Of a stretch of 64,000 nucleotides of DNA, positions 1 to 64,000 are shown piece after piece. Under the pieces are notes generated by a model. The model was given only the letters and a program-made list of their open reading frames with translations. It searched no databases and was not told where the DNA came from. The DNA is from Klebsiella pneumoniae. GTDB lineage: Bacteria; Verrucomicrobiota; Verrucomicrobiia; Limisphaerales; SXTU01. The stretch spans positions 1 to 64,000 of the forward strand of contig CALQJI020000021.1 of the NCBI GenBank assembly GCA_943330855.2. Direction: 5' to 3'. Position numbers and translations under genes: made by a program. Position 1 is the stretch's first letter. Each line of letters begins with the position of its first letter.

Positions 1-3000
1 GCCGGCCACCACGTCGAGGCTGCCGCTCGTGGCCGCACTGCTGCTGGTGCGGAGGTCGGCCGTGCCGGTGAACACCACGCTCCGGGCTGCCAGCACGCTG
101 AGGTTGCCGCTGCCACTCACGAGGTCCGCATTCACCGTGAGGTCGGTGCCCGCACCCAAGGTCTGCAGCAGCACGTTGCCCGAACCATTGGCGCTCACCG
201 CCGTGTCGTCGTCCGGCGCCGTGCCGTTGTTCAAGGTCAGCGAACCCGCCGTGGTCCGCACCACGATATGCCCACTGCCGCCCGTGGTGCGCAGGTCGCT
301 CTGCACCGCATCGCTCACCGGCGTCACACTGCCATCCGCGTTCACCGCCTGCACTGTCACCGCCGTGTCGCCCACCGTCAGAGCGTCGCTCTCCAGCAGG
401 TTGATCCCACCACTGGTCGCCCGCGCGCTCACCGTCGTCACGTTCGTCTCGATCGGGTTCACGCCCGAGCCCAGCAAGCCCACGCCCAATCCCGCCCACA
501 GCCGCAGTTGCGCGGAGGCAATGTCCACCGTCGTGTCGTCGTCCGCGTCGTAGATCGTGCCCGTGTGCGCCGTCACGCTGGCGTTGGCGCCCGTCGCGAG
601 GAGACCGCCCAACCGCACGTCCGTCCCCGCCCACAGCCGAATGTCCCCGTTGAGACTGGTCTGGTGGCTCGTGCCGCTGAAGTCGATCGTGCCCGCGCTG
701 CCGACGGAGCCTGCCACCACCTGGATGGTTCCGGTCCCGGCCGTCTGCAGATCCGCCCCGGCCAAGAAGGTCACATGCCGCGCTGCCAGCACGGTGAGGT
801 GGCCCGTGCCGCTCGCCACGTCCGCATTCGCGTTCACCGTGAGCGAAGCACCCGCGCCCTGCGCCTGCAGCAACACGTTGCCACTACCCTGTGCGCTCAC
901 GCTGATGCCGTCCGCAACTGACGCTCCGTCGGTCACCGTCAGGTCACCCGAGACCGTGCGAATGACGATCGAACCATTACCCGAGGTGGTGACCGCGTCA
1001 CTCTGCGCCTGATCTTCCAGTCGGGTCGTCGAGTCGCTGACCGCCATCACACGTTGGACAAATGCCGCAGTGTCGCCAATGACCAGCGCGTTGCTCTCTA
1101 TTAGGTTGATACCGCCGCTGCCCGCACGGGCACTGACGGTGACGACCGTCGTCTCGATCGCATTAGCCTCGTTGACAGGTGAAGTTGCCGGATCATCTAG
1201 CTGACCCACGCCGATACCGGCCCAGAGACGCAGGCTGCCGGCGACGACATCCACGAGCGCATCTCCGCCGTCGAGGATGGAGCCGGTCGTGGCCAGCACG
1301 CTGACGGTGCCGGAGTCGGCCACAAGGCTGCTGATCGTCACGTTCACGTCCGCCTTGTAACGGAGGTTGCCGCCCGCGGTTTTGGCGAGCGAACCGTCAC
1401 TCATGGTCACAGAGCCCTTGAAGGCTTCGACATCGATCGTGCCCGTGCCGCCGGTGGTCACCATGCCAGAGATGGATTGGAGGAGGTCGCGATTGGCGAT
1501 CAGCGAGATATTGCCGCCGGTCGAAACGACGCCGGCGTTCAGAATCAGATCCTTGTCGTTATTGAGGGTGGTGGTCTGCGACTGGAGCAGGACGTTGCCG
1601 GTGCCATTCGCACGCACGCCCACGCCGTCAGCGGGCGTGGTGCCATCCGTCACGGTGAGGCTGCCGTTGAGCGTCTGGACGATGATGTTGCCGTTTCCAG
1701 CAATGGTGACCAGGTCGCTGATGGTCGCGCTGGTTTGCTGCATTCCGATCGGCGTGGTGCCGTCGGTGTCCACGCGATTCACGGTCACCTGCGCGACGGT
1801 GCCAATGGTGAGCGCGTCGTCTTCCGCGAGGTGAATGCCTCCGATCCCGGCGCGCGCCGCGAGGGTGCTCAGCGCGGTGTCAATCTGGTTGGCCGTCACC
1901 CCGATGCCATTCGCTGCCGTCAACTGGGCGGAAGACGCCGCGATGTCCTGGTCGGCATCACCGTTGTCTAGGATGGAGCCGTTCGTGGCGGTGATACTCA
2001 CCGTGCCGGTCAGCGCGCTCAAACCACCGAGCGCCACGTCATTAAGCGCGAGGTAGCGGATCGTGCCTGCGCCCACCTGCGTCACGGCTCCGTTCGCCAT
2101 CGTGATGGAACCCGTGGCCGCGACGGCATCCACCGTGCCGCCGTTCGTGGTGATGTCACCGACGACTGATTGCAGGATGTCGCGGTTGGCGAGGACGGAG
2201 ATATGGCCGGTGCTGGATTGGACCGCGGCGTTCACCACGACATCCTTGTCGTTGGCAGCGGTCGTGCGGGCCTCGAGACGGAGGTTGCCGGCGCCATCGG
2301 CCACCACGGCCTGGTTGAGGGTGAGGGTGCCATTCAAGGCCACGAGGACGATGGAGCCGCCGCCGGCGGTCGTGCGCACTTCGGTCAGCGCGGCATCCGT
2401 CTGGAGCGAACCCGCCGGGGTCGAGCCATCCACGTCCACACGGCTAACACTGATCGCGCCGAGGGCATCCACGGCCAGCGCGTCGTCGTCCGTGACGAAG
2501 ATCCCGCCCGCGGCCGCCCGCGCCGCCAGCGTGTCAATGGCCACGTCAAGGTGGTTCGATCCCGCGCCGATGCCCACGCCCGCGACGAGGCGGGCACGCC
2601 CGGCGCGCAAATCTTTGTCCGCATTGCCGCCATCCAAGATCGAGCCAGCCGCAGCCCTCACGCTCAGACTGCCCGTGCCGGCGCTCAAGCCGCCCAAAGT
2701 CACGTTCACGGCCGCTAGGTAGCGGATGGAGGCGCCCGCGGTCTGCGCGACCGCCCCGTCGGCCATGGTGATGGATCCGTTCGTCGCCTCGACATCAATC
2801 GTCCCGTTCGTGAGGAGGTCACCCGACGCGGACTGGCTCACCCCGCGATTGGCCAGCACGGTGATCCGGCCGGTCGCGGAACGCACCACGGAGTTAAGCA
2901 CTATGTCTTTGTCGTTCGTCCCCGCATCTCCGGCTTCCAACCGGACATTGCCAAAGGTGTCGGCACTGACGCCGATCCCGTCGGCGGCGGCTATACCATC

Positions 3001-53500: not shown

Positions 53501-56500
53501 AGTGCGAGCGACAGGTTGGCCACCGCGACCCGGATTACCGAACGACTCGTGTTCCCCACGATCTTGGTGGAGGTCGACTTCTCAAACGAGAAGTCGCCGC
53601 TCAGACGCTGGCCGAGCATCTCCAGCACGACGCCCTGACCACTGATCTGGATGTAAGGGCCAGCCGGCAGATTCAGCACCATCACCCGGTCGCCGAGCAT
53701 GAACGTCTCGCTGACGGCGGTGGTCGTGTTGTTGATGGCCAGACCGAAGGTGCCGGAGAAACTGACTCCGGGAACATTCAGCTTCACCTTCCCGCTCATG
53801 GCTCCAGCAATACCATTGGCGGCAATCAGCAGCGCCCCTTGGCCGCCGGTCATGACGACAAAGTCCGTAGTCCCATCGCCCAGACGCAACTCAACATTCG
53901 CCGCGATTACCTTCACCGTGGTCTTGTCATCCGCCGTGCCCAGCGCCCGGTCCGCTCCCGCGGTGGTGGCGCGCTCGAAAGCGAAATCGCCCCGCAGGCT
54001 CTGGGCACCAATCGTCAACTGAACGTTCACCCCTTCCACGCGCAGGTAAGGACCCGCCGGGAGTTGCAGTGCGACCGTGTCGCCACCGACTTGGAAGCTG
54101 GTGTTGACGGCGGAGGACGTGTTGTTGATTGCCAGCGAGAAGGTTCCAGTGAACACCACGCCGGGAACATCCAGCGTAACGGTCCCGGTCACTTTGCCAG
54201 CCAACCCCGCGTTGGTGATCAAGAGCGCCCCCGACCCGCCGGTGAGACGCACGTAGTCGGTCGTGCCATCGCCTAGGCCCATGGAAACGTCTGTGGCTGC
54301 GATGCGGATCACAGAGCTCGGCACGGCTCCCGTCGTGGTCGTCTTCTCGAAGGCGAAATTGCCGGTCAACGTCTGGCCCGCGATGTTGAGGCTGACTCCG
54401 ATGGCCTCAACGCGCAGGAACGGCCCGGCCGGCAGCGTGAGCGCGATCGTCTCGTTCCCGATGCTGAAATTCTCAGCCACCGCAACACCAGTGTTGTTGA
54501 TGGAGATTTTTATCGGCGCGACCAGCGACACCGACGACACGTTCTGCAACGTCATCGTCGCGCTTACCTGACCGGCAAGGCCCGCGTTCGTGATGAGGAA
54601 TGTTCCCGTGCCGCCACTCACGACAACGTAGTCCTTGGTGCCATCACCGAGCGCGAGACGCACATCGCTGAAAGCGACCTTCACCGTCTTCATGCCGTTC
54701 GGCTTCTTCACCTGCTCGAAAGCGATGTTGCCGCTCAGGCTCTGGCCAGCGATTCCGAGATTGATGTTCAATCCTTCGACGCGCAGATACGGCCCGGCTT
54801 GGAGTTGTAACGAGACGGCCTCGCCGCCGACCGTGAACGACTCGTTGACCGCCACGTTTGTGTTGTTGATGGACAGCGAGAGCGTGCCGCCGAGCGTGAC
54901 GCCGGGGATGTTCACCTTCACCGTGCCGCTCAACTTCCCGGCCATCCCCGCGGCGGTGAGGATGAACGCGCCCTGGCCGTGGGTTAGCGACACGAAGTTC
55001 GTCGTGCCATCGCCGAGGCCCAGCACGACGTTGCTCGCCGCGACGCGAGTGACCTTGAGTCCATCGGTCCTGGTGACTTGCTCAAAGGAGAAATTACCAC
55101 TGAGCGTTTGGCCGAGAATGTTCAGGTTGATGTCCGTGCCCTCGACGCGCACATAAGGCCCGGCCTGCACCTGCAACGTCTTCTGCACGCCGCCGACGGT
55201 GAGCGTCTGGTCCACCGCACGGTTCATGTTGTTGATCGCCAGAGTGAAGTTGCCGCTAAAGGTGATTCCCGCCGGCAAGTTCAACGCCACCGTCGCGCTC
55301 AGCGTGCCGGCCATGCCGCCGTTCTCGAGCAGGAACAGGCCGGTGCCGTTCGTGACGCTCACCACGGTGCCGAGCGAGAGCGAGACGTTCGAGGCGGCGA
55401 CGGTGAGTTTCTTCTCGCCGGTGGTTAGCGAAACCGACTCGATGGCGAAGTTGCCGACCAAGGTCTGGCCCGCGACCGTGAGCGAGAGGTTGTTGCCTTC
55501 GATACGGAAGAACGGCCCGGCAGGCAGCACCACGTTGAACGCGACTCCGCCCGCGCTGAAGGACTGGTTCACGGGCGCCGTGGTGTTGTTAATGCTCAGC
55601 TTGAGTGCGCCGCTGAACTGCACGCTGCCGAAATCGATGCCTGCCGTGAGATTAATCTGGCCCGCCATGCCGGCCGGCGTGATGACAAATCCTGCGGTCG
55701 GAATCGTCAGCGCGATACCGCCGAGGTTCAGGCTCACACTTGTCATCGCAAGCGTCACGACGCGCGAGCCATCCGACTTGGTCACCTGCTCGAACGCGAC
55801 GTTGCCCCTGAGCGTCTGCTCCGCAATCGTGATGGCGATGTTCGACCCCTCGAAGCGCAGATAAGGACCGGCGGCGAGGTTCAACGTGTAGCTCTGCGTT
55901 CCGACAGTGAACGTCTGGTTGACCGCCGCGTTCGTGTTGTTGATGGCGACGCTGATGGTGCCAATCAAACTCACGCCCGGAATCGAGACGGCGACATTGC
56001 CCGAAACCGTGCCGGCCAGGCCCGCCGTCGTCGTGATCAAGAGCGCCTGACCGCCGCTGATGCTAAGGAAGTCGCGCGTGCCGTCGCCGATGCCGAGGTT
56101 GAGGTTCGTCGCCGCGATCTTCACCACCGTTGCGCCGCCCGTGAGTGTGGCTTTCTCGAACGCGAAGTCGCCGCTCAACCGCTGGCCCGCAATCTTCAGC
56201 ACGATGCCTGTTCCCTCGACCCTCACATATGGCCCGGCCACGACGCTCAACGTGCGCGTCTCGGAGCCGACCATGAACTGCTCGTTAACGTCCTTCGCGG
56301 TGTTGTTGATGGCCACGCTGAGCGTCCCGGTGAACTCCACGCCCGGAATGTGCAGCGCGACCTTGCCGCCGATGCGACCCGCGAGCTCGCCGTTCTTGAT
56401 CACGAAGAAGCCCTCGCCCTCCGAAAGAGTCACAAGGCCCGCGAGGTTGAAGGCAATCTTCGTCGCCGCAATCTTGATGACCTTCGCCGGTGCCCCGTTG

Positions 56501-59500
56501 CCGATCGAGAGGCCGGTGTATTGCTCAAAGGAAAAATTACCGGTCAACGTCTGCCCCGCCACCGTCAAGGCGACATTCAAGCCCTCCACCTTCACGTAAG
56601 GTCCGGCTGGCAGCGTCACGGGCAATGCGCCGGGCAACGTGACCGCTGCGGTCGTAGTGTTGATGAAAAGATTGAACGTGCCCGCGAAGTTCACGTCGCG
56701 GATGTTCGTCGTGACGGTTGCGGTGACCACGCCGGCCAGGCCGCCGTTCGTCACGCGGAACACGCCGCCGCCATTTCGAATGCTGACGGACTCGGTCGTG
56801 CCATCGCCGAAGCCCATGCTCACGTTGCTAGCCGTGAGGGTGAGCGTCTTCTCTGTCGGGCTGATCGTTTCCTGCGTAAAGCTAAAGCGACCGCTCAATG
56901 ACTGACCCGCGATCGCGAGCGTCAGATCGGCGGCGAAGCTCAGTTCGCCGTGCGCCACATTCACCACGACAATGCCGCCCGAGCCGCCCGGGATGGTGAT
57001 GGTGCGGTTGATCGCCCCGCCAGTGTTATTCACCCGGATAACCCCGCGACCCAATACGGACACGCCGGAGACGCCCAGCACTTCCACGTCGCCCTCCGCG
57101 TAGAGGGCATACGTCGTGGTGCCGATGGGCCGGATGAGGCCGAACTTGGCATTGCTCAACAGGAAGCCTCGCGCCGCTGGATTCTTCGTTCCGTCCTCGA
57201 GCAACCCGGGGCCGTCGCCCATGAAGATGCTCGCACCGGTCGCGCCGAGTTCGTCACCGTTGAAGGTGAAGCTGCCCTCGATGACGACAAAATTTGCGAT
57301 ATTGAGCGTGAGATCGCCGTAGAAACTGAAGACATCCGCGCCGGTGGTGAAGCGCACGTTGTAGGACTGCCCGTCCAACTCGAAGGTCTCGTTGACGGCG
57401 AGCCGCGTTTTGTTCACACGCAGACCGAAGCTGCCACCCACCCCCACACCGCCGGCGGCGATGGATGCCTGACCGGAAATGTAGCCCGCAATGCCCCCCG
57501 AACCGGGCACAGCCGGATCCGCCGGCAGGATGACGAACGCGCCCTGTCCGTCCGTCAACCCCTGACCACTGACCGTCACGCTCACATGGTTCACCGCGAC
57601 GCGCGTGACCTTGTTCGCACCGCTGCGGGTCACATCCTTCCAAATATCCTCACCGTCGGTGTAGTTGCCGCTGCCGTTTGCGTCGTTGTAGAACAGGCCT
57701 TGCTGGAGGCCCTGGGTCCCGACGGCAGTGTCCCAGTTTCCATCGCCGCCGTCATAGACCTTCACATCTCCCGCATCATAAGCCCCGACCACGCCGCCCG
57801 CCGCATCCTTCCAGATCTCGTTCCGTGGCGAGTAATCCAGGCTCCTGTCTGCGTCGTGGTAGTAAAGTCCAGCCTGTGCGCCGGTGGCATTCGCCAGCGT
57901 GCTCCAAGCTCCGTCGCCGTTGAAAACCTGCACGTCGAGCCCGTCATTAAATGCACCGGCGGCGCCCTCAGTGCTGGAAGTCTGGTCAAAGGAGAAATCG
58001 CCCTCCAGAACCGCCCCGCTGGGGCCACCCACCTGGAGGCGCGCGCCCATGGCCACCACGCGCAGGAACGGCCCGGCAGGCACCTCGAGAGGCACCGTAA
58101 CACCGCCGACTTGGAAAGCCGTTTCCACCGCCACCGCACCGGTATTAAACTGGAGCCGATAACTGCCGCCCGCGAGCGTGATTCCAGGCACAGAGACAAT
58201 GACACCCGTCAGGAGGAAGTCCGCCGCCACCCCGGAGCGGGTCACCAGGACGGCACCTTGGCCACTAGTCACCCGAACGAAATCCGTCCCGCCCGCGCTG
58301 ATTTTCAGGCTGAGATTCGAGACCGCGATGGACACCTTCGACTCGTCGTCGGCCGTGCCGAGCAGGCCATCCACGCCTGCGGACTTCACTTGCTCGACCA
58401 CAACGGATCCGGAAATCTTCTGGCCGAGAATCTCGAGTGTAACCGGCGTCGTCGTGCCGCCCTCGAATCGCACGAATGGCCCGGCCGCGAGGTCGAGCGT
58501 CTGGGTCGAACTGCCGACCTTCAATTTGTATTTGACCGCTGCGGTCGTGTTGTTGATGCGCAGATTGAAGTCGCCGTCGAACTTCACTCCCGGGATGTCC
58601 ACGACGACCGTGCCGCCGAGTTCGCCCGCGAGGCCGCCGTTGCGAACGACGAACAAGCCGTGTCCATCCGTGATGCGAACGAACGTGTTCGTGCCGTCGC
58701 CTAAGCCAAGTTGCGCCTTGCTCACGCCGAAGAGCACGATGGTCTCGTCGTCCGTGGTGTTTGCAACTCCGTCGGCGCCGAGCGTTTTCGTCTGCTCGAA
58801 GGTGAAGTCGCCGGCCAAGGTCTGCCCCACGACCTGCATCGACAGGTTCGTCCCCTCGACGCGCACGAAGGGCCCGGCCGGGAGCGTGAATGTCACCGGC
58901 ACATCGCCGACGTTGAACGATTCGGAGACCGCCGACGTGGTGTTGTTAATCTTCACGCTGAGCGAACCGCTCAGCGAAACGCCCGGTAGATTCAAGGCGA
59001 CCGTTCCGCGCAACGAACCGGCGATGCCCGAGTTCGTCATCAGCAGGAAGCCGTTGGCGTCGGTAATTGAGAAAACCGCATTGGCCCCGTCGCCCAAACT
59101 CAGACTCACACCCGTCGCCGCCACGCGGATGACCTTTTCGCCGCCCGTCTTCGTCATCTGCTCGAACACGAAATCCCCCTCCAAGGTCTGGCCGGCGAGG
59201 GTCAGGCGAACGCCTTGGCCGGATACTCGGACATAAGGGCCGGCGGGCAAGTCCAACGACACGGTCGTGGATCCTACTAACATCTGCTCAGACACCTCCG
59301 CGCCGGTGCTGTTGATTTCCACGGTGAATCTCCCGGCAAATTTCACGTCCGCGCCCGCATTCACGCCGACTGTTCCGCTGAACGAGCCAGCCAACCCCTC
59401 GGCCTTCGCCACCAAGAATCCAGACCCACTGCTGACGGTGACAGTGGCCGGACTCCCGCCGCCCAGCTCCATCGAGAGATTGGATGCCGCAATACGAACA

Positions 59501-62500
59501 AGGGGCTGCCCGCCCGACGTGGTGAACTGCTCGACCGCGAAATCGCCACGCAGCGTCTGGCCGAGGACGGACAGCGTAAGGCCGTTGCCTTCCACGCGTA
59601 GATACGGACCGGCGGGCAGGTCCAGTGAAACGCTCACGCCGCCGGCGCTCATGGTCTGCTTCACTGCGGCCGCAGTGTTGTTGACCTTCACGATGAAGCT
59701 GCCGGAGAAGGAAACATTCGGAATATTCAGCATCACGCTGGCGCTCAACTGCCCGGCCATGCCAGCGCTAGTGATCAGGAACGCCCCCGTGCCGCTGGTG
59801 ACTCTAGCCAGCGGCGCTGCCCCGCCCAAAGCAATGGCCACATTGGTCGCTACCACCTTGACCACCTTGGTCCCATTGGACGCGGTGGCCTGCTCGAACG
59901 CGAAATTACCAACGAGCGTCTGCCCCGCGATGCTCACACCGATATTCGTGGCCTCGAACCGCAGATAGGGACCGCTGGGCAAGTCCAGCACGGTCGTCGT
60001 CGCGCCCACCCGGAAGGTCTGATTCACTCGCGATCCGGTGTTGTTAATCTTCAGGCTCAGAGTGCCGGCGAGAGTGACGCCGGGAATGTTCACCGCGACG
60101 GTGCCGCTGAACGCGCCGGCCAATCCCTGCGCCGTCAGAACGAAGGATCCCTGCCCGTTGGACAGGCTCACATAGTTTGTCGAGCCATCGCCCAACTGAA
60201 CCGCCAGATTAGCCACGGCCAAGCGAACGATCTTCGTCGGCGTCGTGGAGACCGTGGTCATCTGCTCGAACGCAAAGTCACCGCTCAGGGTCTGGCCGAG
60301 CAGACTCATCTGTAGGCCCAACCCCTCGACGCGGACATACGGGCCAGCGGGCAGTTCCACTTCCACCGTCGTGCCGGCGAGGGTGAAGCTCTTGCTCACC
60401 GCCTGAGCGGTGTTATTGATGCGGAGGTTGAAGCTCCCGACCAAGGTGACGCCCGGGACGTTGATCCCGATTGTTCCGGACAACTGGCCCGCCAAACCGG
60501 CTGAGGTCAGGAGCAACGCACCCTCACCATTTGTCACCGAGACGAAACTAGTCGTTCCATCGCCCAGACTCAGGCTCACGTTGCTCGCGATCACGGTGGT
60601 CAACTTCTCCCCACCAGCGGCCGTCACCTGCTCGAAAGAGAAGTTGCCGGTCAGGGTCTGGCCGAGCACCGAAAGCGTCACTCCCTCGCCCGTAACGCGC
60701 ACGAACGGTCCGGCGGGAAGCTGCAACGTCAAGGTCTGACCACCGACCTGAATGGTCTCATCCACCGAGGCTGCAGTCGTGTTGATCTCCACGGCGAAGT
60801 TCCCGGCGAAATTCACGCCCGGCACCGTCAGTGAAACCGTGCCACTGATGGAGCCAGCCATCCCCGTGGGTGACAGCAGGAAGAAGCCGGCCGCATCAGC
60901 CACCCGCACGGCATCGCCGCCGAGATTGAGGCTCACGCCGCTCGCCGCGACACGGATTGATCCGGCGGAAGCACCGGTCGTCACCTTGTCGAAGGCGAAA
61001 TTGCCGCGCAGCACCTGGCCGAGGACGTTGAGCTCGATGTTCTCCGCGGAGAAGGATGTGACCTTCATCGCCGTGGGGAAGTAAACGCGCACGCCGGACT
61101 GCGAGCTGTTCGGGATGCTAAGCGTCTGGTCCACGGACAAGCCCGTAGTGTTCACCAACACCGTCGCCGTGCCGCTGAAGCTGACGCCGTTGATGCCAAT
61201 AATCTCGACCGTGCCCGTGGCGTTCATCGCGAACGTGCCATCGTTGAACTTGATCAAACCAATCTTCGCGTTGCGCAGCAGGACGCCCGTGGCGAGCGGG
61301 TTAATCTCGCCGCTCGCCAGCTTCACAGGGCCTTGGCCAAGGAACACGAGCAAGTCGGTGCCCGCGAAAATCTGGCGGTCCGACAGGCTCGTGAAGTTCA
61401 CGTTGCCCTCTATGGTCACGAAGTCGCCGATGTTGAGCGACAAGTCCTCGCCGAACACCTGGAAGACATTCCCCTCGGACGGGCCGAACTTGATGGCGAT
61501 TTCCCGCGAGCCGACGGTGATGGTCTCGTCCACCGCGCCGCCAGTCTTATTGATGCGCAAGCCGAGCCGGCCGCTGACGCTCGCGCCGCCGCCGGAGGCG
61601 GAGATGTTGCCCGTGAGCACGCCGGCGACGCCCGATGAGTTAGTGCCGATTTTCCAAAGCTCAAGGCCGTTGGTTCCATCGTCCGCAGCCAGGACGAGCG
61701 AGCCATTCAAGTTGATGAGACTCGCCGGCCGGGAGGTGATGCTTCCGACATTGATATCCTTCACCAGCACCGTGCCCACCGCCGTGCCGTCGCTCTTCCA
61801 AAGCTCGCGACCATTCACTCCGTTGTCCGCGGAGAAATAGAGCACGCCATTCACCGTAGTCAGGTTCAGCGGAGCCGACGCCGCGGTGCCGGTGCGAATG
61901 TCCTTCACCAACACCGTGCCTGTCGCCGTGCCATCGCTTTTCCACAACTCGCGGCCATTGGTTCCGTCATCGGCGGAGAAGAAAAGCGTTCCGCCCATGC
62001 CGGTGAGATTCAGCGGCGCTGAACCGAGGCTGCCGTTGCGAATGTCTTTCACCAGCACGGTGCCCGCCGCAGTGCCGTTGCTTGCCCACAGCTCCGCCCC
62101 GCCCACGCCGTCGTCAGCCGTGAAGTAAAGCGTGCCGTTCACATTGACTAGGCTGGTCGCAGCCGACGTGGCGCTGCCGGCGCGGACGTCCTTCACCAGC
62201 GTCGTGCCCGTGTCGGAGCCATCGCTCTTCCAGAGTTCGCTGCCCGTCAGACCGTTGTCAGCGGTGAAGTAAAGCGTGCCGTTGACCGCCGTGAGATTCG
62301 CCGGATTGGAACTGAGCTGGCTGGGAGCCGTGGTGGACTTGAGATTGAGCCCGGTGAGTGACGCCGTCGCCCTCACTGTTGACGAACCGCCCGCAGCCGC
62401 GGAGGAAGTGCCGAGGGTTGACTGCGGGTCATCCGGTATGACCAGCACGAAGGCCAATGTCGCCACATCGAAACTCGAGGTGATGTCGAACGGTGAATTG

Positions 62501-64000
62501 GTCGAACTGTTGATGGCGGTGAGGAGCGTCGCCAGCGTGGTCGCAGTGGCCGACGGCACGGTGATGGTCAGGACCGAGCCGCTGACGGCGCCAACCTGCA
62601 CGGAGGTGACGGCTCCCTTGACGATGCGAATCGTGGTTCCGTTGACCGACGCAGTGTTCGAGTCAGACAGGAAACTCAGAGTCACTGCCGACGTCGGAAC
62701 CGCGTTGACGTCCTTCACGAGCACCGTGCCCACCGTTGTGCCATTGCTCTTCCACAACTCGATGCCCGTCAACCCGTCGTCCGCGGTGAAGTAAAGCGTG
62801 CCGTTGAGGTCCGTCAGGTTTGTCGGGTTGGAGCTAAGCTGGCTCGCGGTGGACGCGCCACTGACGTAAGGCTGGAGGTCTTTCACCAACAGGGTGCCTG
62901 CCGCGGTGCCATTGCTGGTCCAAAGTTCGCGGCCCACCACGCCGTCATCGGCGGAGAAGAACAACGCTCCGTTCGAGCTTACGAGGTTCTGCGGAGTCGA
63001 AGCGGTGCTGCCGCTGCGGATGTCCTTCACGAGCTTTGTGCCTGCGCCGGTCCCGTTGCTCGTCCACAACTCCACGCCATTCACGCCGTCGTCCGCGGTG
63101 AAGTAGAGCACACCGTTCACGCTGACGAGATTGGTGGGACTGGAGCCCGTCGCGCCGGCGCGGATGTCCTTCACGAGCACGGTGCCCGCCGCCGACCCGT
63201 TGGTCTTCCACAACTCGACGCCATTCACGCCGTCGTCTGCGGTGAAATACAAGGTGCCGTTGGCCTCGGTGAAATTGGCGAGCGCTGAACCACCACTGCC
63301 GGGAGCGATGTCCTTCACGATGCCATCGTAGCTCGCCAACACGACCAGCCCGCCCGCGACTCCGGTCAGTCCTTTGCCGGCCACGGTCACGCTGACATTT
63401 GCGATGGCGATGCGCGTCACTCTCGCTCCGCTTGGCTGCGTGCTCTGGTCGAAGACGAAGTCGCCGGCGAACACGGGCCCACTCTCGCTCACGAGGGCCA
63501 GGCTCGCACCGATCACTTCCACGCGCACATACGGGCCAGCCGGCACAGTCACGGTCACCGGCATGCCCGCGACGACGACCGTCTCGTTCACGGCGACCAT
63601 GCCGGTGTTGATGGCGAGCTTCACTGTGCCGCCCGTAAGATTCACTCCCGGCAAATTCAAACTGGGACTGACCGTGAACGAAGCGGCCAGACCCTGCGGC
63701 GTGATAACGAGCAGACCGCTGCCGTTGCTCACGGAGAGGAAGGCCGTGGTGCCGTCGCCGAATGAGAGCGAGAGATTGGTCACCGCTACGCGGACAATTC
63801 TCGTGCCCACGCTGTTCGTCGACTGTTCGAACACGAAGTTTCCGCCGAGGCTCTGGCCCGCGACCACGAGCGTGACGGCAGTGCCGCGGACGCGGACGTA
63901 ATTATTGGCGGCGACGGCGTTGTCCGTCCGCAAATCCACCGTGAACGCGCCGGCGAAGCTCACGCCCGTGATGTTGAAGGCCACGGCGCCGCTGAAGTTG
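1..64000 (-). CDS. Interior of one giant modular repeat protein (both ends outside window)
   Basis: A single minus-strand reading frame (codons ending at coordinates 1, 4, 7 ...) is open over the whole window, about 21,333 codons, without start or stop. I translated lines near 1, 7.5 k, 11.4 k, 12.5 k, 14.3 k, 22.7 k, 31.4 k, 41.3 k, 45.9 k, 57.7 k and 63.9 k, and all fall in this same frame and give recognisable protein. Modules seen are RTX calcium-binding repeats, FG-GAP, P-domains, PA14, discoidin-like, PPC-like, leucine-rich, Ig-like and filamentous-haemagglutinin-like repeats. The protein is rich in Gly, Ala, Thr, Val, Asp and Asn. I noticed only two cysteines (7,498-7,500 and 24,211-24,213), which fits an extracellular protein. 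No signal peptide, membrane helix, secretion signal or enzyme motif is visible; these would lie in the missing ends if present. Likely a secreted or surface adhesin or scaffold. Family resemblance is to giant beta-strand-repeat proteins of PVC bacteria. The open frame is near certain; the function is inference. Confidence 0.95.
8560..9170 (-). repeat. GxNND domain cluster, two copies inside the beta-helix region
   Basis: IKSPGANNDLRFTATTAGAT with IVRIFDDGTLTTNTAVATW and LLVNVNLTNTTAATVLAQVN; then LPISGASNNLLFTATATGSA with TIALVNSDVATVTVQANGGT and HTAAQIAAAVTSV. They are inserted between beta-helix strands on both sides. Confidence 0.8.
9170..11340 (-). repeat. Filamentous-haemagglutinin-like beta-helix region
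   Basis: Short beta-strand runs such as GAIDISKNLVIRTGTLQLQA, LLVAQPASGPDGLG, GDVMLLNLTGEMIVTSANAS, GDITISTGPLGGDVTITGRL, NVVIQGDIGGTEALENLTIV, SAGSVTINGRINVRGRF, GTITFKQNVTSAGELRITAA and NLLFTGSTIVVGAMKQL. Regular VxIxGxI / LxIxxAGxV strands are characteristic of right-handed parallel beta-helices of FHA type. Exact repeats are not visible here. Confidence 0.78.
11340..11640 (-). repeat. RTX block with the cadherin-like YVF ending
   Basis: DRLEIDVSVDVPVIAYGGDG, NDWLRGGVTGNRLFGGAGND, TLVSTAASDTLAGGTGDDSY, VFAAGYGNDTIVEF. The last element, GDDxYxFxxGxGxDTIxEF, is the classic terminating form of RTX arrays. Confidence 0.92.
11640..12400 (-). other. Leucine-rich repeat-like segment
   Basis: ILINDAALRAAIGRALG, SSELFRITQLDASRLGVTDL, RGLRFLTNLESLNLSGNTIG, LNGLGELVPGTDAGTGMA, LTKLRYFAMDANAG, and NRLVFLSLNNTTPTI. 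The L-x-x-L-x-L-x-x-N pattern, a leading xxL..AI..ALG cap and the order 'Lxx..LTxLxxLNLSxNxI' fit bacterial leucine-rich repeats of the sort often placed in surface adhesins. It is short, four to five repeats. Confidence 0.75.
12400..12570 (-). repeat. Short RTX block
   Basis: DRDILHGGEGEDILIGNGGA and DSLFGDSGVDFFIGE. Three turns, separating the propeller-like repeats from the leucine-rich segment. Confidence 0.88.
12570..13480 (-). repeat. Propeller-like LYF/LWR repeats
   Basis: LLFTVKRTDNGTTEVWRAIG, LYFVSNNTTAPSLWRTVTG, LYLAIDRTIGDAVNPTELW, ILFLTVNAGSLGNQLWRIL, LYVRQTTNKILRVGATENV and AFYYSAGTPGNLRTGGDLNG. About six blades of ~50 residues, then NLFYQIDTWAPFAGEADPG leading into an RTX turn. 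Confidence 0.75.
13480..14690 (-). repeat. GxNND domain cluster, four copies
   Basis: Copies begin with PQFQVRIIDDGTLVGDTATA (partial), then IHPAGENNDFIITAVQDGPA (line 14,341-14,400 translated), LQPSGNFNDLVITARETGAT, and LRLPGANNDLFISSDRLRGG. Each continues with LLFVQDSTLTADQARADYDG or similar and a LTxxLNxxVxxAAAIVAAVN helix. Period about 310-330 bp. These are the copies that look most like the phage virion domain. Confidence 0.82.
14690..17200 (-). repeat. Propeller-like LYF/ELW repeats with an embedded PPC-like domain
   Basis: Units such as LYLSALESGGTRGVELYRS, NVFFTTSAATGVNLWKWSG, LFFVANVPTGGSTPFKLFY, LYFTSGDRLWFTSGT, FLYYTVDAINPTRVELWKI and LYFTVQNAASAYQLWRSDG recur. Between about 15,800 and 15,460 lies an insertion: WTRMALRIEASTAQPFSI, LTFKLAAQAGVLADVF and RNMVAGTYYVRVYDPS, whose GTYYVRV ending is PPC-like. 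ELYRSDP near 15,955 and VTLADATRGALFTYSS mark its edge. Confidence 0.72.
17200..17890 (-). repeat. GxNND domain cluster, two copies
   Basis: LQPGGTNNDVVITTADNKFT with IAVKFIDDGTITTNVATATY and TLTLNIKNGVTTAGTILMAI; then VTIDPVGANNAIRFTYLGNT with YTIQFVPGVTLTKDLIEAVN. The second copy is followed by GKFTVEKGTDIESASND. Confidence 0.78.
17895..19450 (-). repeat. ~105-residue tandem repeats, partly near-identical
   Basis: Five units. The middle three share STAVFNVSTASITATMTF, VGGVPKISNLSGISAG, GTSLASKLNADA, VGAGLTASW and LTITDALGRALANADLDD. Spacing is 315 and 318 bp (GATGCCGGAC at 18,391, 18,706 and 19,024). Bases 18,382-18,520 and 18,697-18,835 are identical over 139 bp. The outer units (17.9-18.2 and 19.15-19.45 kb) are clearly diverged. 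This is the most recently duplicated part of the gene that I can see. Confidence 0.92.
19450..20440 (-). repeat. GxNND domain cluster, about three copies
   Basis: VIVPGANNDFQVTAPNSEAN with LLNIHIQAGVTTANQIVTVV; VRPEGAKNDLTFTAIATGTS with TTIRFIDDGTVTG; and a copy with SLVFTSKQSGTAYNGTVIVI, QDGASVSNGAAQATESGN and IGTVIAALNRLG. Each has a strand pair ending in TA, a V-x-[FL]-I-[DN]-D-G turn, then a strand plus TTAxQIxxxxxxL helix. Confidence 0.78.
20440..21870 (-). repeat. Propeller-like LYF repeats
   Basis: Recurrent ~45-60 residue units with LTxxxxxLYFxAxxxxxxxLW or LYxxxG: VVGNRLYLVANDITNPAG, AVGDTLYFIRDGNTLW, TLYFRATYLATTALYQAQG, NNALYYVGDSAGEALLF, TKLYFVASNGAATGLW and SKLYFAATASADTELYSVD. 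A run of this type usually forms a beta-propeller. Relatives are at 12.6-13.5 and 14.7-17.2 kb and the ELW arrays at 61.6-63.3 kb. Confidence 0.75.
21990..22330 (-). other. PA14 domain, copy 2
   Basis: TNYAMKFEGFLNITTAGNYT, FTLGSDDGSRLTIDGVVRV, NHDGLHATTQLSSSAFALTA, GAHTIKLEFFQQGGGASLQL and a final FYSG. The SDDGSRLxIDG, NHxGLH, LxxGxHxIxxxFFQxGGxxxLxL order is diagnostic for PA14. It is followed by a segment with VEVPASAYKNEA. Carbohydrate binding is the usual role. Confidence 0.93.
22690..23660 (-). repeat. FG-GAP / EF-hand-like repeat region, block 2
   Basis: DVNGDGLDDL (near 23,630), DVNRDGYGDF (23,410), DFNGDGEMDL (23,185), DLNADRIADL (22,930) and DADLDGDGFPDDNRY (near 22,690-22,725). 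The intervening FSEPRFVYRD, VYLLPGR, LLVYFGNSTY and LHVVYGANLL strands are typical of FG-GAP units. The four P-domains sit between blocks 1 and 2 as if inserted in one propeller. Confidence 0.9.
23660..24020 (-). other. Proprotein convertase P-domain, copy 4
   Basis: YITDLNVKLNLTYPQLQRLK, GELVAPDGTAVTLFNG, NMAFDNLGGALTTAPYTG, SFNGKNPNGVWKLSLTDTTG and GVLVDWQLEISY. The APDGT, NPNGVWxLxxxD and GxLxxWQL landmarks are present. It passes straight into FG-GAP block 2. Confidence 0.87.
24020..24425 (-). other. Proprotein convertase P-domain, copy 3
   Basis: LISDVDVSVTLTHANVGGLQ, TVFDQDCATSLSSGSGTF, LLSALDTLTPNATWTLEIVD, GTLSNWEIRVRTN. It contains one of only two cysteines I noticed (24,211-24,213). 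The domain is complete but the SPxGT loop is replaced by NNGAGTT. Confidence 0.82.
24425..24780 (-). other. Proprotein convertase P-domain, copy 2
   Basis: ALTDVDFRLNLTHPNLSDLR, AYVTSPTGQQFTLFGFGS, NWKGSWVLTLLNRSEAVGKL, IDWAVTTKTN. More diverged: the TYxGDL element is HPNLSDL. Follows copy 1 after a TTGGGDG linker. Confidence 0.8.
24780..25240 (-). other. Proprotein convertase P-domain, copy 1
   Basis: VLDVNVVVNLTHTYTGDLAI, WLSSPNGTMVQLFNRRGGGG, TTFDDEAG, PLSAFDGATGNGMWTLKISD, GVLANWQLVVST. The features V-x(5)-HTYxGDLxIxLxSPxGT, FxGxxxNGxWxLxxxD and GxLxxWxL define the P-domain of subtilisin-like convertases. No subtilase catalytic domain precedes it. This is the best-conserved of four tandem copies. 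Confidence 0.92.
25240..27960 (-). repeat. FG-GAP / EF-hand-like repeat region, block 1
   Basis: Integrin-alpha-type FG-GAP repeats carrying calcium loops: DFNGDGFADF (near 27,800), DLNGDGISDL (27,505), DLNGDGKDDL (27,270), DFNGDGKADF (27,090), DYDNDGFNDI (26,750), DFNGDGRDDF (25,900), DVNADGFADL (25,735). A dockerin/EF-hand-like run DLNNNGVFDAGEDLNANGKF lies near 27,640-27,710. Text such as YLGGHLNEDLN or VLFGRPDDLN between loops is typical of FG-GAP blades. A GxNND-like segment is inserted at 26,180-26,540. The repeats probably form a seven-bladed propeller or two; they are commonly adhesive. Confidence 0.9.
27960..28280 (-). other. Flagellin/hook IN motif-like domain, copy 7
   Basis: LARFTVTLGTESFVISLNDD, ADLDSLVADVNTQFAAAGI, GYLVFSRVSAGDIAVTLDS and ASVLGFSALQTSGG. 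Last copy in the reading direction, directly before the FG-GAP region. The LGF after the strand pair is also typical of IN-motif proteins. Confidence 0.6.
28560..29050 (-). repeat. RTX block
   Basis: VVDLRAGNDVFHGDPAYLF, IHGGSGNDRLFGGPYADLLF, GDTGNDFIAGGEGDDVIDGG, AGKDLLAGYTT. A well-formed run of seven or so turns, ending in NGVDGGNDDVNFASLVPEV. The stretch 28,280-28,560 that follows has no recognisable motif. Confidence 0.9.
29070..29420 (-). other. Flagellin/hook IN motif-like domain, copy 6
   Basis: ADITFGLVLGGVEYSITVPV, then TSHSDLAKDIIVAMRTATNQ, and GRLVFLTTELAKTQPLNASA. Strand-helix-strand order as in the other copies, with a longer helix. It lies between two RTX blocks, keeping the alternation seen from 34 to 28 kb. 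Confidence 0.55.
29540..30070 (-). repeat. RTX block with adjoining beta segment
   Basis: VRKDVILGGVGNDRLQGG, MGEDWIFGGPGNDVISGG, ASDLLFGGPGDDSFQI, and near 29,560-29,620 QMFGGDGDDRVLFVGGD. About six RTX turns, interrupted by a 40-residue linker. Residues before it (29,880-30,070) form a GYTILNLSGKAGGSISLG strand segment of uncertain type. Confidence 0.85.
30070..30350 (-). other. GxNND domain, dispersed copy
   Basis: INPSGANNGFKISGAAGVIV, RILDTAASAGAETASFSAG, TLTIGIKDGQSTAAQIIAVI. Same fold pattern as the clusters at 8.6-9.2, 13.5-14.7, 17.3-17.9 and 19.4-20.4 kb: GANNxxxxxA, VRxxD, then LTxxIxxGxSTAAQIxxxIN. Confidence 0.7.
30350..30945 (-). other. Two pre-peptidase C-terminal (PPC)-like domains
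   Basis: Copy 1: TGLTMDSADDVDYFVFQLG, LGLAIYDLNQLSELGIF, AFLLVNIDDLG. Copy 2: LSIHGAVDVDYFKFTLGHD, LEFAIVDLNNNVLKNS, and LKGLPKGTYYARVKSGS. DxDYFxFxL near the start and GLxxGTYYxRV at the end are PPC hallmarks. PPC domains accompany secreted hydrolases but here no enzyme is attached. Another likely copy lies near 15.5 kb. Confidence 0.75.
30945..31670 (-). other. Flagellin/hook IN motif-like domains, copies 4 and 5
   Basis: Copy 4: KFNLLLNGSRDAFVLSLP, ATLADLVSDLNAVLKGADL, AKLAFIPALSSSVTSIQI. Copy 5: DIEFSVSINRGTTVKLRV, QSLDDLVADLNAAITQVGL, NRIRLYTLLATANPTLRLTI. These two are the clearest matches to the strand-helix-strand pattern 'LxDLVxxLNAA ... L ... RLxLxTL'. Confidence 0.65.
31680..32150 (-). 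other. Spacer with one RTX-like turn, no other feature seen
   Basis: Contains FHLITRLTNNNGN-like and FTFAASVKLNFNATNSAG strands (near 32,040-32,100), a Gln/Glu-rich stretch YQQQEMEASLLPPEGDF near 31,850-31,900, and IIDALDGNDQINVGP followed by VDAGPGDDTVLFTSGN near 31,740-31,850. The latter two are RTX-like. The rest is unassigned linker. Confidence 0.55.
32150..32440 (-). repeat. Degenerate RTX block
   Basis: DTGLNRMLGGKRDDDLYGG, NGLDFMYGNGGTDTMYR and SLDGGLSGDDW. Three to four weak RTX turns. The following residues (WYYRATNADDVINVDF) return to an ordinary beta segment. Confidence 0.8.
32440..33130 (-). other. Flagellin/hook IN motif-like domains, copies 2 and 3
   Basis: Copy 2: GQLTADAHFALVVGSGKPVD, QSVSDLVADINAALAQTSL, GLSIAFSTLGTTLSITSI. 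Copy 3: ASLTLRNNNTSATISLPA, TSLDQLVGQINDQIEQSLL, AGRLVFRSLTTSLKFI. The helix with SLDxLVxxIN and the RLxFxSLTTxLxI strand are conserved in both. They are joined by a ~40-residue linker. Confidence 0.6.
33165..33440 (-). repeat. RTX repeat block
   Basis: VDGGPGNDTILGSTGRDRLD, GGFGSDTVYGFGGDDRLFG, WLFGGQGNDDVIAGQGTN. About five GGxGxD-type turns in a row, between two IN-like domains. Confidence 0.9.
33690..34010 (-). other. Flagellin/hook IN motif-like domain, copy 1
   Basis: ASFTLALGTKSHSFNVNLS, then LDSVVDSLNQAF, a strand AEVEAVRRGARVVIISRG, and SVSGANDYAVSRLGL. The arrangement is strand, a 'SxxDLVxxLNxA' helix, and two strands with LxLTS-like ending. It resembles the IN motif of flagellins and FliD, which also occurs in other extracellular repeat proteins. 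Six further copies lie between 28 and 33.1 kb. Confidence 0.55.
34100..38050 (-). repeat. Main RTX array with ~125-residue higher-order period
   Basis: The densest calcium-binding region, with dozens of GGxGxD nonads: GGAGNDVLFGG, DGDGGEDVLVGDGG, LGGSGNDTIHGG, LRGGLGSDVILGDNG, FGGSGDDQIYGG, MGGSGNDIINGNGGDDF. Between 37,230 and 35,880 a longer unit of about 370 bp recurs. It begins with GGNDxID (36,610; 36,240; 35,880) and contains ILLGDNG or VFIGDNG (36,905; 36,530; 36,160). So short RTX turns are nested in a larger repeat. Beyond 35,200 the order becomes irregular (FGGRGNDILLGGAGDDFLVG, GGADSDVLLGGDNDDIL). RTX arrays fold on binding extracellular Ca2+, usually after type I secretion. Confidence 0.93.
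38050..39100 (-). repeat. YLGGEPV short repeat region
   Basis: Imperfect ~25-30 residue repeats containing YVGGEPAVDPFTKQPL, VYLGGEPVLHSAGDPV, RYLGGEQVYDEGG, LHLGSQAYIHNRRDQVF, then, after a gap, YYGDERVQVG, FHLRGEQVYRL and LFLGNEPVLRTGGEQVF. The middle part (38,400-38,650) carries an unrelated strand segment, VTVANYDLKTGDTVGVVVY. I know no family name. The G-x-E-x-V spacing suggests one beta-hairpin per unit. Confidence 0.75.
39360..39740 (-). other. Discoidin / F5-8 type C-like domain
   Basis: The segment shows FTIYEHDDGLVEFGKIDVLV, SQDGSTWVSVKSSEGSP, SFARSYDLGSLSSARYIRIT and GGFDLDAIGI. The order FxVYE..., VxVSxDGxxW, ARYIRIxD, GFDLDAI matches the second half of discoidin-like domains seen in secreted bacterial proteins. 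It follows PA14 directly, a pairing common in glycan-binding proteins. The short length makes the family call moderate. Confidence 0.65.
39785..40185 (-). other. PA14 domain, copy 1
   Basis: Begins GTGLFAEYWNNKDYTG, then VRVDPTINFDYGNGG, FSARWTGYIQAPASGTYRF, YTKSDDGVRLTVGGQILID, IDIFFYDQGGPAYMQLSW, and ends with a TPPGG loop. This is the classical PA14 order (LxAEYY...; FSVRWxGxxxxPxxGxYxF; DDGxRLxVDG; ExxxxxGxAxxxLxW). PA14 domains typically bind carbohydrate. A second copy is at 22.0-22.3 kb. Confidence 0.9.
40190..41150 (-). other. Mixed segment with short RTX-like pair
   Basis: The core reads VTGAGNDRVNIEEASG and IYGGAGDDTVEVHDGN near 40,680-40,790, a two-turn RTX-like patch. It is preceded by LDGIESLDIRLAAGDDQFTF. 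After it come strands such as FRFTDGSGNSTTYAL and GNVDLRAVVQNPNG, and a linker up to the PA14 domain. The remainder is not assigned. Confidence 0.6.
41150..41640 (-). other. Non-repetitive island rich in Trp and Phe
   Basis: About 160 residues unlike the surrounding repeats. They include FELGFWQSILSLFGVGPDV, then VARKILSDKVSAILREKAA (probable helix), ISQAQIQVSTRTVWRGWWFF, SFPRTTVEVRVSNFVVDYEV and LEARTKLVQPPSITVDPP. Charged helix, aromatic cluster and proline-rich linkers contrast with the Gly/Thr/Asn-rich background. No family recognised; it could be a folded recognition or oligomerisation domain. Confidence 0.6.
41640..43560 (-). repeat. Degenerate RTX-like repeat region
   Basis: Scattered GG[AST]G-[NDF]-x elements such as GAGNDTIDAG, LGNDTVTGGFGLD, LAGGAGNNTMVLGD, IMGGGDDEIIIG, LHGGAGNDRFLLK and VTGGSGDDTIHIGG. 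They are separated by 50-100 residue inserts that lack the motif. The inserts contain VRVNINDSGEGSGVDFLLVN-type strands. Calcium binding is likely but sparser than at 34-38 kb. Confidence 0.8.
43560..44480 (-). repeat. RTX (hemolysin-type calcium-binding) repeat block
   Basis: GGSGDDVIIVHG, IRGGSGNDYIETD, VDGGDGIDIIHHNG, IRGGSGDDTITSD, IYGDAGDDIITVHG and YLGTGNDVVRIG follow one another at about 20-residue spacing between 44,300 and 43,830. GGxGxDxUx nonapeptides bind Ca2+ and form a parallel beta-roll in RTX proteins. The block's tail (43,560-43,800) is a less regular beta segment. Confidence 0.9.
44480..46935 (-). other. Second amphipathic all-beta region (about 820 residues)
   Basis: Long strands with aromatic residues, e.g. 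LADFFDEPVISLKSKQ, VVELNGFLQIQVAANSGGG, GDLNIANTIKIQGYFELEIS, FGEIELAPIGKLTVQGML, GLIAHIGLSLGADFGKDIGL and VRFKIKFLFFTFRATARFHL. Loose repetition of an LxxxGxxxINxTG element relates it to the LNIGDF modules. It ends directly before an RTX block. I recognise no named domain. Confidence 0.6.
46935..48870 (-). repeat. Ig-like ~125-residue repeats, five copies
   Basis: The D-V/I-x-F landmark occurs near 48,770 (KPYIDVLYNAPPG), 48,260 (NWVDVDFV), 47,925 (RSYMDVKFRPTNG), 47,565 (QRYLEVTFLPTAG) and 47,225 (NHFIDVTFTPTTG). Each is followed by SILDxxxEFxLTG, a GTxxFRYxxxG strand, and VxFxAGxWxDxxG. Spacing is about 340-360 bp except for the first, which is longer. Same unit as at 51.2-51.8 kb. Confidence 0.8.
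48870..51185 (-). other. Amphipathic all-beta region with a short polyglutamine tract
   Basis: About 770 residues of alternating hydrophobic and polar strands without strict periodicity, e.g. SIADFAFKNGLLYLTIAVG, VFGLLSGNVRVDVPGKFSL, KFKADTMEIKLGSFLAL, GLSIRLGLSELGPLNVMVTA. A run of five Gln (CAG codons) lies near 50,893-50,908. Some strands echo the junction modules (IGxxxxxxG, NxxG). There are no catalytic motifs and no membrane helix, although several hydrophobic stretches occur. Function unknown. Confidence 0.6.
51185..51835 (-). repeat. Ig-like ~125-residue repeats, two copies
   Basis: Two units with QRYLDVKFLDPNG (near 51,790) and GRYLDVTFLTQNG (near 51,400). Each continues with an ASILDxxxEFxxxG pattern, a GTTYRYxxxG strand, then F-x(4)-W-x-D. 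Five more copies of the same unit are at 46.9-48.9 kb. The strand pattern looks like an immunoglobulin-type fold; that is inference. Confidence 0.75.
51835..52780 (-). other. LNIGDF junction module, copy 3, and flanking beta strands
   Basis: Third punctuation module: LNIGDFVTLHGNITV, IFLGEGPYELSKGVLNP, VALTNAKVGFIS, YALHAEGDIALIGVDGLTV, NTTG and RTLTIPST. It is followed by FVGSVTIKVASFIEIGGTV and by strands ending near 51,840 (FRLNGFSLFGVGA). It closes the long beta-repeat superblock before the Ig-like repeats begin. Confidence 0.65.
52780..56900 (-). repeat. ~122-residue beta repeats, block of about eleven copies
   Basis: AGP[YF] elements lie near 56,598, 56,230, 55,862, 55,512, 55,155, 54,790, 54,420, 54,045, 53,655, 53,270 and 52,905, spaced 350-390 bp. 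The unit is as in the 58.0-61.1 kb block, e.g. AGPYLRVEGLNINLGIAGQ, LSGNIAFEQVKK, and DGTKDYVVVSGGTGTFLI. One copy has the GADRALGTADDKT insertion near 53,925-53,960. Copies are clearly homologous but diverged from one another, unlike the near-identical repeats at 18.4-18.8 kb, so this is an old expansion. Confidence 0.85.
56900..57600 (-). other. LNIGDF junction module, copy 2, with adjoining beta repeat
   Basis: Equivalent of the 61.1-61.6 kb module: LNIANFVVIEGSFTF, IFMGDGPGLL, GFLLSNAKFGLIRP, YALYAEGDVEVLGVSGVSV, an NNTG element and RTITIPGG. Upstream in the reading direction (57.3-57.6 kb) is a diverged 122-residue-type unit with NETFELDGQSY and GQASIAAGGVGVGG. The module separates the eight-copy block from the eleven-copy block. 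Confidence 0.7.
57600..57960 (-). repeat. Two tandem ~50-residue IWKD repeats with EF-hand-like acidic loops
   Basis: Two copies share the pattern DVxVxxGxGxW, GLxYxDA, then IWKD. They read DVQVFNGDGAW ... GLYYHDADRS ... EIWKDAAGG and DVKVYDGGDGNW ... GLFYNDANGSGNY ... DIWKDVTRSG. The acidic loops look calcium-binding. The pair replaces the short loop that normally sits between two strands of the 122-residue repeat, so it is a domain inserted into a repeat unit. Confidence 0.75.
57960..61070 (-). repeat. ~122-residue beta repeats, block of about eight copies
   Basis: AGP[YF] elements lie near 60,706, 60,341, 59,966, 59,604, 59,236, 58,867, 58,475 and 58,070, a spacing of 362-405 bp. Each unit carries: AGPYxRVEG, a GQTLxGxFxFEQ strand, RVAxxNVxLxLGDG, a GxGxxLIxxxGxAG turn, PGVxFxGxxxLxINNT, then SFxVGG. 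Two copies carry an insertion of the type GADGxxxTxDD (near 58,340-58,380 and 58,755-58,790), which lengthens the unit and could bind calcium. No Cys seen. Probably a stacked beta fold; the family is unknown to me. Confidence 0.85.
61070..61625 (-). other. LNIGDF junction module, copy 1
   Basis: This is a distinct module that punctuates the 122-residue repeats. In order it shows LNIGDFVTIEGNVNF, VFLGQGPVKLASGEINP, VLLRNAKIGLIKF, then a GTVEIIGINGVSFSGTA strand, an NTTG element and TLSIPNSS. Two equivalent modules lie at 56.9-57.4 and 52.0-52.5 kb. It seems to mark boundaries between superblocks of tandem repeats. I recognise no named family. Confidence 0.7.
61630..62334 (-). repeat. ELW-x-S-[ND]-GT repeat array, five units
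   Basis: Second array of the 48-residue unit, with ELW positions near 62,230, 62,085, 61,943, 61,798 and 61,655. The period is 143-145 bp and the VKD codons sit near 62,187, 62,044, 61,900 and 61,757. The last copy (ELWKIGT) is degenerate and passes straight into the next beta module. With the array at 62.7-63.3 kb it makes nine units. Confidence 0.85.
62335..62700 (-). other. ~120-residue beta/alpha spacer domain between ELW arrays
   Basis: The segment contains TTIRIVKGAVTSVQVG, a strand LTITVPSA, then TTLATLLTAINSSTNSPF. This resembles the second half of the GxNND domain found repeatedly at 8.6-9.2, 13.5-14.7, 17.3-17.9 and 19.4-20.4 kb: a beta strand followed by a TTA...AIN helix. It splits the ELW repeats into two arrays, which suggests insertion of one module into another. 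Assignment to the same family is tentative. Confidence 0.5.
62700..63315 (-). repeat. ELW-x-S-[ND]-GT repeat array, four units
   Basis: Four units of mostly 48 residues (144 bp; one spacing is 168 bp). Each has the pattern LVKDI, NLxxxNGxLYFTADDG, then ELWKTNGS or ELWTSNGT and a following GT. ELW codons lie near 63,207, 63,064, 62,919 and 62,752. Such ELWxSDGTxxGT repeats are common in very large planctomycete and verrucomicrobial proteins. The strand pattern suggests propeller-like blades, but that is inference. Confidence 0.85.
63370..63999 (-). repeat. ~122-residue beta repeats, most N-terminal copies seen
   Basis: About two copies of the unit that dominates 52.8-61.1 kb. Hallmarks are an AGPYVRVE strand near 63,520-63,540, a G-[QP]-x(2)-G-[ND]-F-V-F-[ED]-Q strand, RVAVTNLSLSFGDGTTAF, and LLVITPQGLAASF. 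The array continues beyond 64,000, so the repeat block starts outside the window. The fold is presumably all-beta from the alternating hydrophobic pattern; I do not know a named family. Confidence 0.75.

Follow-up and report, generated by a model that had tools for sequence, protein, structure and literature searches.

A giant stop-free reading frame, its homologues in several phyla, and a second-SecA operon as their putative exporter

Introduction

The DNA analysed here, a stretch of 64,000 nt that we call the window, is filled from end to end by one reading frame. Is this frame a single real gene, what are its relatives, and by what route might a chain of such length leave the cell, as the initial annotation had asked?

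Several giant or repetitive bacterial proteins have been described. Omnitrophota contain giant ORFs of up to 39,678 residues in which transmembrane helices are reported (PMC10066038), a Vibrio protein of ~8,000 residues carries LEPR-XLL and RTX sequences (PMC10868602), SiiE is a 595 kDa type I secreted RTX adhesin, and MpAFP carries a PA14 lectin. A separate line of work concerns a secondary SecA_DEAD, type-I-like locus described by Kamneva and colleagues in 2015, who termed its biological role completely unknown, found no ABC transporter at the locus and proposed SecA as its possible ATPase (PMC4452313).

Results

One frame spans the whole contig

The window comprises bases 1-64,000 of contig C21 (G000:C21:1-64000), a contig of 65,925 bases in an assembly (G000) of 5.42 Mb and 153 contigs that is 86% complete. 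In the minus-strand register reported by the initial annotation (codons ending at 1, 4, 7 and so on) there are no stops in 21,333 codons, and the frame runs off both window ends. The remaining 1,925 bases of C21 are open in the same frame, so that the entire contig reads as 21,975 codons without an in-frame stop. The frame is open at both contig ends, and reading of the whole contig gave neither a gene start nor a stop codon. About 264 stops would be expected in C21 from the frame's own position-specific base composition versus the zero observed, and in each 1,000-codon block (22 of 22) GC was highest at codon position 3. Among internal repeats of C21 in stretches of at least 200 bases, the closest pair is 82% identical.

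A contig from another genome bin (G047:C301) matches 6,861 bases of C21 at 98.5% identity without gaps. The 101 differences comprise 74 synonymous and 27 nonsynonymous changes and introduce no stop (pN/pS 0.125), a pattern that shows purifying selection on the frame. The G047 contig (L065; window 47164-54024) sits in the bin of another family, either as a stray contig or through recent transfer. The window is probably the middle of one intact, constrained gene for a giant multi-domain protein, whose product would act at the cell surface or extracellularly.

Domain organization of the window protein

The features of the frame are collected in Table 1. The ~123-residue repeat array extends past the window into C21:64001-65925 and contains 21 anchor motifs, most of them 117-136 residues apart. 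The core is 41-48% identical to two homologues and 43-60% identical in 13 homologous stretches other than that of G047, and the second conserved stretch is 28-46% identical to homologues across 400 of its residues. Pfam placed 12 PF00353 stretches within the piece 28801-43800. The NCBIfam RTX haemolysin, serralysin, ZapA and xylosidase models matched in the RTX and PA14 stretches with scores far under cut-off, and Pfam detected no enzyme domains in the window frame at E 0.001. The C-terminal array resembles haemagglutinin repeats by eye and has no Pfam match.

Table 1 Features of the window frame, in window coordinates (the protein N-terminus lies at high coordinates)
Feature	Position	Strand	Basis and remarks
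Whole open frame	1..63999	-	N-terminus at high end; goes on to C21:65925, beyond the window; open at both contig ends
Array of ~123-residue all-beta repeats	52126..63999	-	Self matches, anchor motifs, model; borders approximate
ELWxxDGT repeats within the array	61663..63216	-	NCBIfam TIGR04534, 540 bits vs cut-off 65; motif positions
Most conserved core of the family	47179..51828	-	Sequence identity to homologues
Second conserved stretch, beta-rich	42886..47175	-	Homology; collinear chains
PA14 domain, overlapped by GLEYA	39781..40176	-	Pfam PF07691 E 3.6e-23; PF10528 E 9.1e-8
RTX calcium-binding nonapeptide region and linkers	28792..37413	-	Pfam PF00353 E 2.3e-76; motif positions
Proprotein-convertase P domain, best of three	24802..25113	-	Pfam PF01483 E 2.8e-39
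FG-GAP repeat, best stretch	23530..23643	-	Pfam PF01839 E 3.4e-32
Second PA14 domain	22000..22257	-	Pfam PF07691 E 3.2e-12
Three tandem repeats of 105 residues	18183..19127	-	Period 315, 82% matches
C-terminal array, long diverged repeats	1..8193	-	Self matches; comparison with C152

Three ~123-residue repeat units were modelled as a run of antiparallel strands (pLDDT 95), for which Foldseek found no solved chain at E 0.001. A second structure comparison returned outer-membrane barrels (Z up to 13.6, rmsd 12-20 Å), which we take to reflect a common antiparallel-strand run rather than kinship. The core model was of middling quality (pLDDT 75.5), and its seven matches under 0.001 all had TM-scores of 0.32 or less. 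A search by sequence found no solved relative of the core.

The missing ends and the full length

Window bases 1-2000 gave no DNA match to other contigs. A protein search found contig C152 of the same assembly (3,263 bases), which opens in a repeat of the C-terminal type of the window gene and reaches a stop after 507 codons. It is 48% identical over 520 columns to the last 520 residues of a frame of 10,068 codons closed at both ends (G012:C161), the two sharing the same terminal domain, and a homologous barrel-like gene lies downstream of both. By sequence comparison C152 looks like the 3' end of the window gene, and 22,482 codons are assembled on C21 plus C152. Repeat register gives an estimated gap between them of ~70 residues, or of ~70 plus whole repeats. 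The arrangement of terminal domain and downstream barrel-like gene was also seen more widely (L050 545-2312 plus 46 listed loci) and is possibly a separate surface-anchoring pair general in the order.

The start was sought in G000 with the N-terminal 2,600 residues encoded by G012:C161, which matched nothing in a search that had no positive control, and by eye in the bases after the SecA gene of contig C130 (see below), where there was no LEPR-XLL start. In closed or near-closed homologues the point that matches the first residues of C21 falls at codon 1,201 (G058), 2,525 (G059), 4,804 (G070) and 10,600 (G062). The full gene may perhaps be about 23,700 codons or more, a length that is rough when taken from homologues because the repeats are alike. 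We estimate the mass of the window protein at above 2 MDa.

A family of giants in several phyla

Searching with a core profile yielded 22 loci, with record labels of Verrucomicrobia, Pirellulales, Rhodopirellula, Desulfobacterales, Desulfuromonadales, Coriobacteriia, Actinomycetota, Flavobacteriales, Rokubacteria and two alphaproteobacterial isolates. In the 18 genomes searched, which cover 19 of the 22 loci, the core was always present, the best open frame per genome having 2,849-22,555 codons and several being cut by contig ends. The homologue on VFJQ01000092.1 (G059) is closed at both ends at 22,555 codons, and C21 residues 11-10,278 chain collinearly with it. Such chains along the window protein also join it to the LEPR-XLL proteins of G058, G062, G012 and others. 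The window gene belongs to a family of giants that spans several phyla and whose members mostly begin with LEPR-XLL.

The initial annotation had considered the frame to be probably among the largest known bacterial coding sequences. It does belong among the larger bacterial ones, but a place near the record or an exceptional kind is not supported, since a protein of 39,678 residues is in print (PMC10066038) and the G059 homologue is closed at 22,555 codons; record size was accordingly rejected. Another homologous locus, G062:C252 12643-116594 (L105-L110; CAFBRK010000252.1), has a 21,117-codon LEPR frame, then an overlapping frame of 10,683 codons and, past one stop, 2,892 further codons that reach the end of the contig. 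These three pieces add up to ~34,600 codons, the breaks being due to read errors or decay.

The LEPR-XLL motif at the start of the giants

An N-terminal LEPR-XLL-like motif is present in 11 of 13 homologous frames that start within their contig (two of them judged by eye), the exceptions being those of G069 and G074; broken pieces were left out of this count. All four homologue starts given to the NCBIfam model NF012209 (LEPR-8K) passed its cut-off. In a check for a signal peptide, the highest 12-residue hydropathy mean near the motif was 1.1-2.0 in 17 of 18 starts, with start codons uncertain and the G050 start falling under the length threshold of this reading. G050 has nine LEPR-XLL frames on nine contigs (4,993-17,972 codons). 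Within the order NF012209 matched above cut-off in 10 of 58 genomes. It gave no match in G000, where the start of the window gene lies outside the assembled contigs; for that gene an N-terminal LEPR-XLL would be a prediction from its homologues. In G012 a weak LEPR-XLL match lies in a 98-codon frame after SecA, and the control genome of Deinobacterium chartae also matches the model.

A second SecA in an operon that accompanies the giants

Five genes lie upstream of the giant in G070. One encodes a 660-residue SecA, and the others an M50-like/HlyD fusion, a GAF/HlyD protein, an adaptor and an OEP/TolC protein. The domains of all five were assigned on the G070 proteins with Pfam and NCBIfam, which found no ABC domain among the five. 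In G059 SecA is ~70 bases before the giant frame, and in G069 the giant is followed on the same strand by GAF/HlyD, M50/HlyD and SecA. All five genes were matched by tblastn, with the G070 proteins as queries, on contig C130 of G000, where the second, shorter SecA scored 925 bits; the housekeeping SecA of G000 is on C61.

Strong M50/HlyD matches and a second SecA occur in the same 10 of the 58 genomes, which represent ten different families. GAF/HlyD adjoins M50/HlyD in all ten and SecA lies beside both in nine, the operon of G047 being split over contigs; the adaptor was matched in nine. The repeat array of the window was found in nine of the 58 genomes (G000 included). The operon accompanies it in 9/9 array genomes versus 1/49 genomes lacking the array (Fisher p = 9e-10; p = 1e-6 for the operon with LEPR-XLL; 58 genomes, uncorrected for kinship). 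Several observations count against an export reading: G022 has the operon with neither array nor LEPR match, G013 and G053 have LEPR matches above cut-off and no operon, the giants of G069 and G074 lack the motif, the window gene has no assembled start from which LEPR-XLL could be read, TolC was matched in six of ten operons, and in G000 the operon (C130) and the giant (C21) are on different contigs and may lack linkage.

Giant and operon side by side on plasmids

With M50/HlyD of G070 as query, matches were obtained in 64 complete plasmids, 15 of which were examined: as cases the 11 best matches plus H25, and as distant controls H12, H20 and H28. In all 12 case plasmids SecA, M50/HlyD and GAF/HlyD stand together with a giant frame as their same-strand neighbour, an arrangement that in two plasmids crosses the start of the record, whereas the three controls have no SecA. 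Carriers of operon and giant on a plasmid include the culturable, non-pathogenic Pontibrevibacter nitratireducens (NZ_CP049813.1) and Pseudosulfitobacter sp. DSM 107133 (NZ_CP085155.1). In H7 the giant is frame-broken and in H8 SecA is split over two frames. The giant frames of H1-H6 and H9-H11 were read up to the edge of the stretch, the annotated length being used for H2, H5, H9, H10 and H11. Six annotated giants measure 24,447, 26,544, 30,156, 31,557, 31,812 and 38,757 bases, and two are annotated 'LEPR-XLL domain-containing protein'. The motif was found in all seven plasmid giant starts read; in two of them its first letter is M or Y. Of the controls, H12 has a 3,405-codon frame beside its SecA-less operon, and no frame exceeds 1,500 codons in H20 or H28.

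Other features of these neighbourhoods were seen. SecA-less M50/HlyD operons (L225, L227) stand beside a 3,405-codon Ig-like frame in Azospirillum and an ELWxxDGT repeat protein in Magnetospirillum; in five plasmid operons (L212, L213/L223, L215, L221, L222) the gene for a small DUF3467 protein separates the giant from the HlyD gene; and the G070 giant is followed by a protein, haemagglutinin-like by eye, of 1,236 residues or more (L117 3-3710).

Discussion

From co-occurrence and gene neighbourhood we consider it probable that the giants with LEPR-XLL are the cargo of the second-SecA operon and act as adhesin-like proteins at the surface or outside the cell. We also lean towards the more specific proposal that giants ranging from several thousand to over 22,000 residues have their own SecA-driven HlyD/TolC exporter, in which the type I ABC engine is replaced, and that LEPR-XLL is its address tag. 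In such a type-I-like machine a dedicated second SecA would take the place of the ABC engine, recognise the LEPR-XLL segment as an N-terminal address, and feed the chain through the membrane-embedded M50-like/HlyD protein and the HlyD adaptors into the TolC channel. Outside the cell the RTX part would fold with calcium, the beta arrays would serve as a stalk, and the PA14, P and FG-GAP modules would attach to surfaces or sugars. Anchoring at the outer membrane may fall to the terminal domain and the adjacent barrel.

The giants could instead reach the periplasm by the ordinary Sec route, with the terminal domain and the neighbouring barrel then carrying or anchoring them at the outer membrane. 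Among the matches listed, a barrel-like match follows the terminal domain within 700 bases in 39 of 46 cases compared (49 of 55 barrel rows were used, six weak or second-piece rows being left out), and C152 supplies a 40th pair, placed outside the 700-base rule by a 76-base overlap of the frame used. However, the same pair also stands behind proteins of a few hundred residues, the 3' ends of G059, G070 and G058 have neither terminal domain nor barrel in the flank tested, and the co-occurrence with a second SecA is left unexplained, so we judge this route unlikely. We think it slightly less likely still that operon and giant are found together only because both ride on mobile or hitch-hiking DNA, without the giant being cargo. 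Patchy distribution, the plasmids and an island are what such co-travel would give, and array, M50/HlyD of this kind and second SecA are absent from all ten other genomes of the same genus. Yet in distant taxa the genes are same-strand neighbours a short distance apart (31 bases; ~70 in G059), and the association persists where operon and giant are on separate contigs of a genome. An exporter gene beside a large RTX protein is, moreover, the usual cargo layout of type I systems. Export by the second-SecA machinery is the reading that we prefer.

Doubts can also be raised about C21 itself. That the frame arose in assembly, by the merging of repeats from different genes into a single contig, is very improbable: contigs are short, repeats are present, both ends of C21 lie inside the gene and start and stop are missing, but the repeats of 200 bases or more reach 82% identity at most, a 6.9-kb stretch recurs gap-free in another bin, and homologues are collinear over 10,000 residues, one of them closed. 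That C21 is foreign to the organism of this bin is a good deal more plausible, although still not the reading we favour, and it would change the host rather than the gene. The tetranucleotide correlation with the bin is 0.56-0.72 versus 0.86-0.89 among six other contigs, its near-identical piece occurs in G047, whose operon is only ~67-71% identical in DNA to that of C130, and no other genome of the genus (0/10) has the gene. On the other side GC agrees (61-66% versus 64-65%), the bin also contains C130 and C152, and odd profiles are normal for repetitive genes. In tetranucleotide profile C130 also departs from the bin, as C21 does; this counts against our preferred explanation, and the profiles are not decisive on the host. 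We retain the view of C21 as part of one intact giant gene.

The operon has its closest published counterpart in the secondary SecA_DEAD locus, with which it has SecA, M50-like/HlyD, GAF/HlyD and OEP genes in common; the available text of that paper names no substrate, and giant LEPR-XLL proteins are proposed here (PMC4452313). In Methylobacterium extorquens AM1 the operon is META1p2399-2402, and its genes other than the GAF gene showed very weak or no expression (PMC4452313), which counts against the export reading. AM1 also encodes META1_2412, a protein of 15,831 residues with RTX and haemagglutinin families, on an island (2402-2415) that starts at META1_2402, where the operon ends (PMC2680597). 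We liken it to the window protein by its published description, and the available text of that paper does not mention an exporter. In a literature search, without bioRxiv and most subscription journals, no publication was found that connects the secondary SecA locus with LEPR-XLL or with giant proteins.

The window protein resembles the LEPR-XLL proteins of NF012209 in the motif of its collinear homologues, in giant size and in RTX repeats, but it is much longer than the ~8,000-residue Vibrio protein and its start is unassembled (PMC10868602). With the Omnitrophota ORFs, compared by description, it shares a single giant frame and a presumed surface role, whereas those reach 39,678 residues and have transmembrane helices (PMC10066038). 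Type I RTX adhesins such as SiiE and MpAFP likewise combine a long repetitive stalk with calcium binding, and in MpAFP a PA14 lectin; they differ from the giants in that the operon here has SecA instead of an ABC engine, and SiiE is 595 kDa versus an estimated mass above 2 MDa for the window protein.

These data join an orphan exporter locus, described in 2015 (PMC4452313), to giant bacterial proteins that have no known way out of the cell. The putative second-SecA exporter is thus a concrete candidate answer to the question of how such a chain leaves the cell. Culturable alphaproteobacteria carrying operon and giant on plasmids offer a direct test ground. If the proposal is true, there would be a SecA-powered type-I-like route for megadalton proteins, with a short N-terminal tag marking the cargo.
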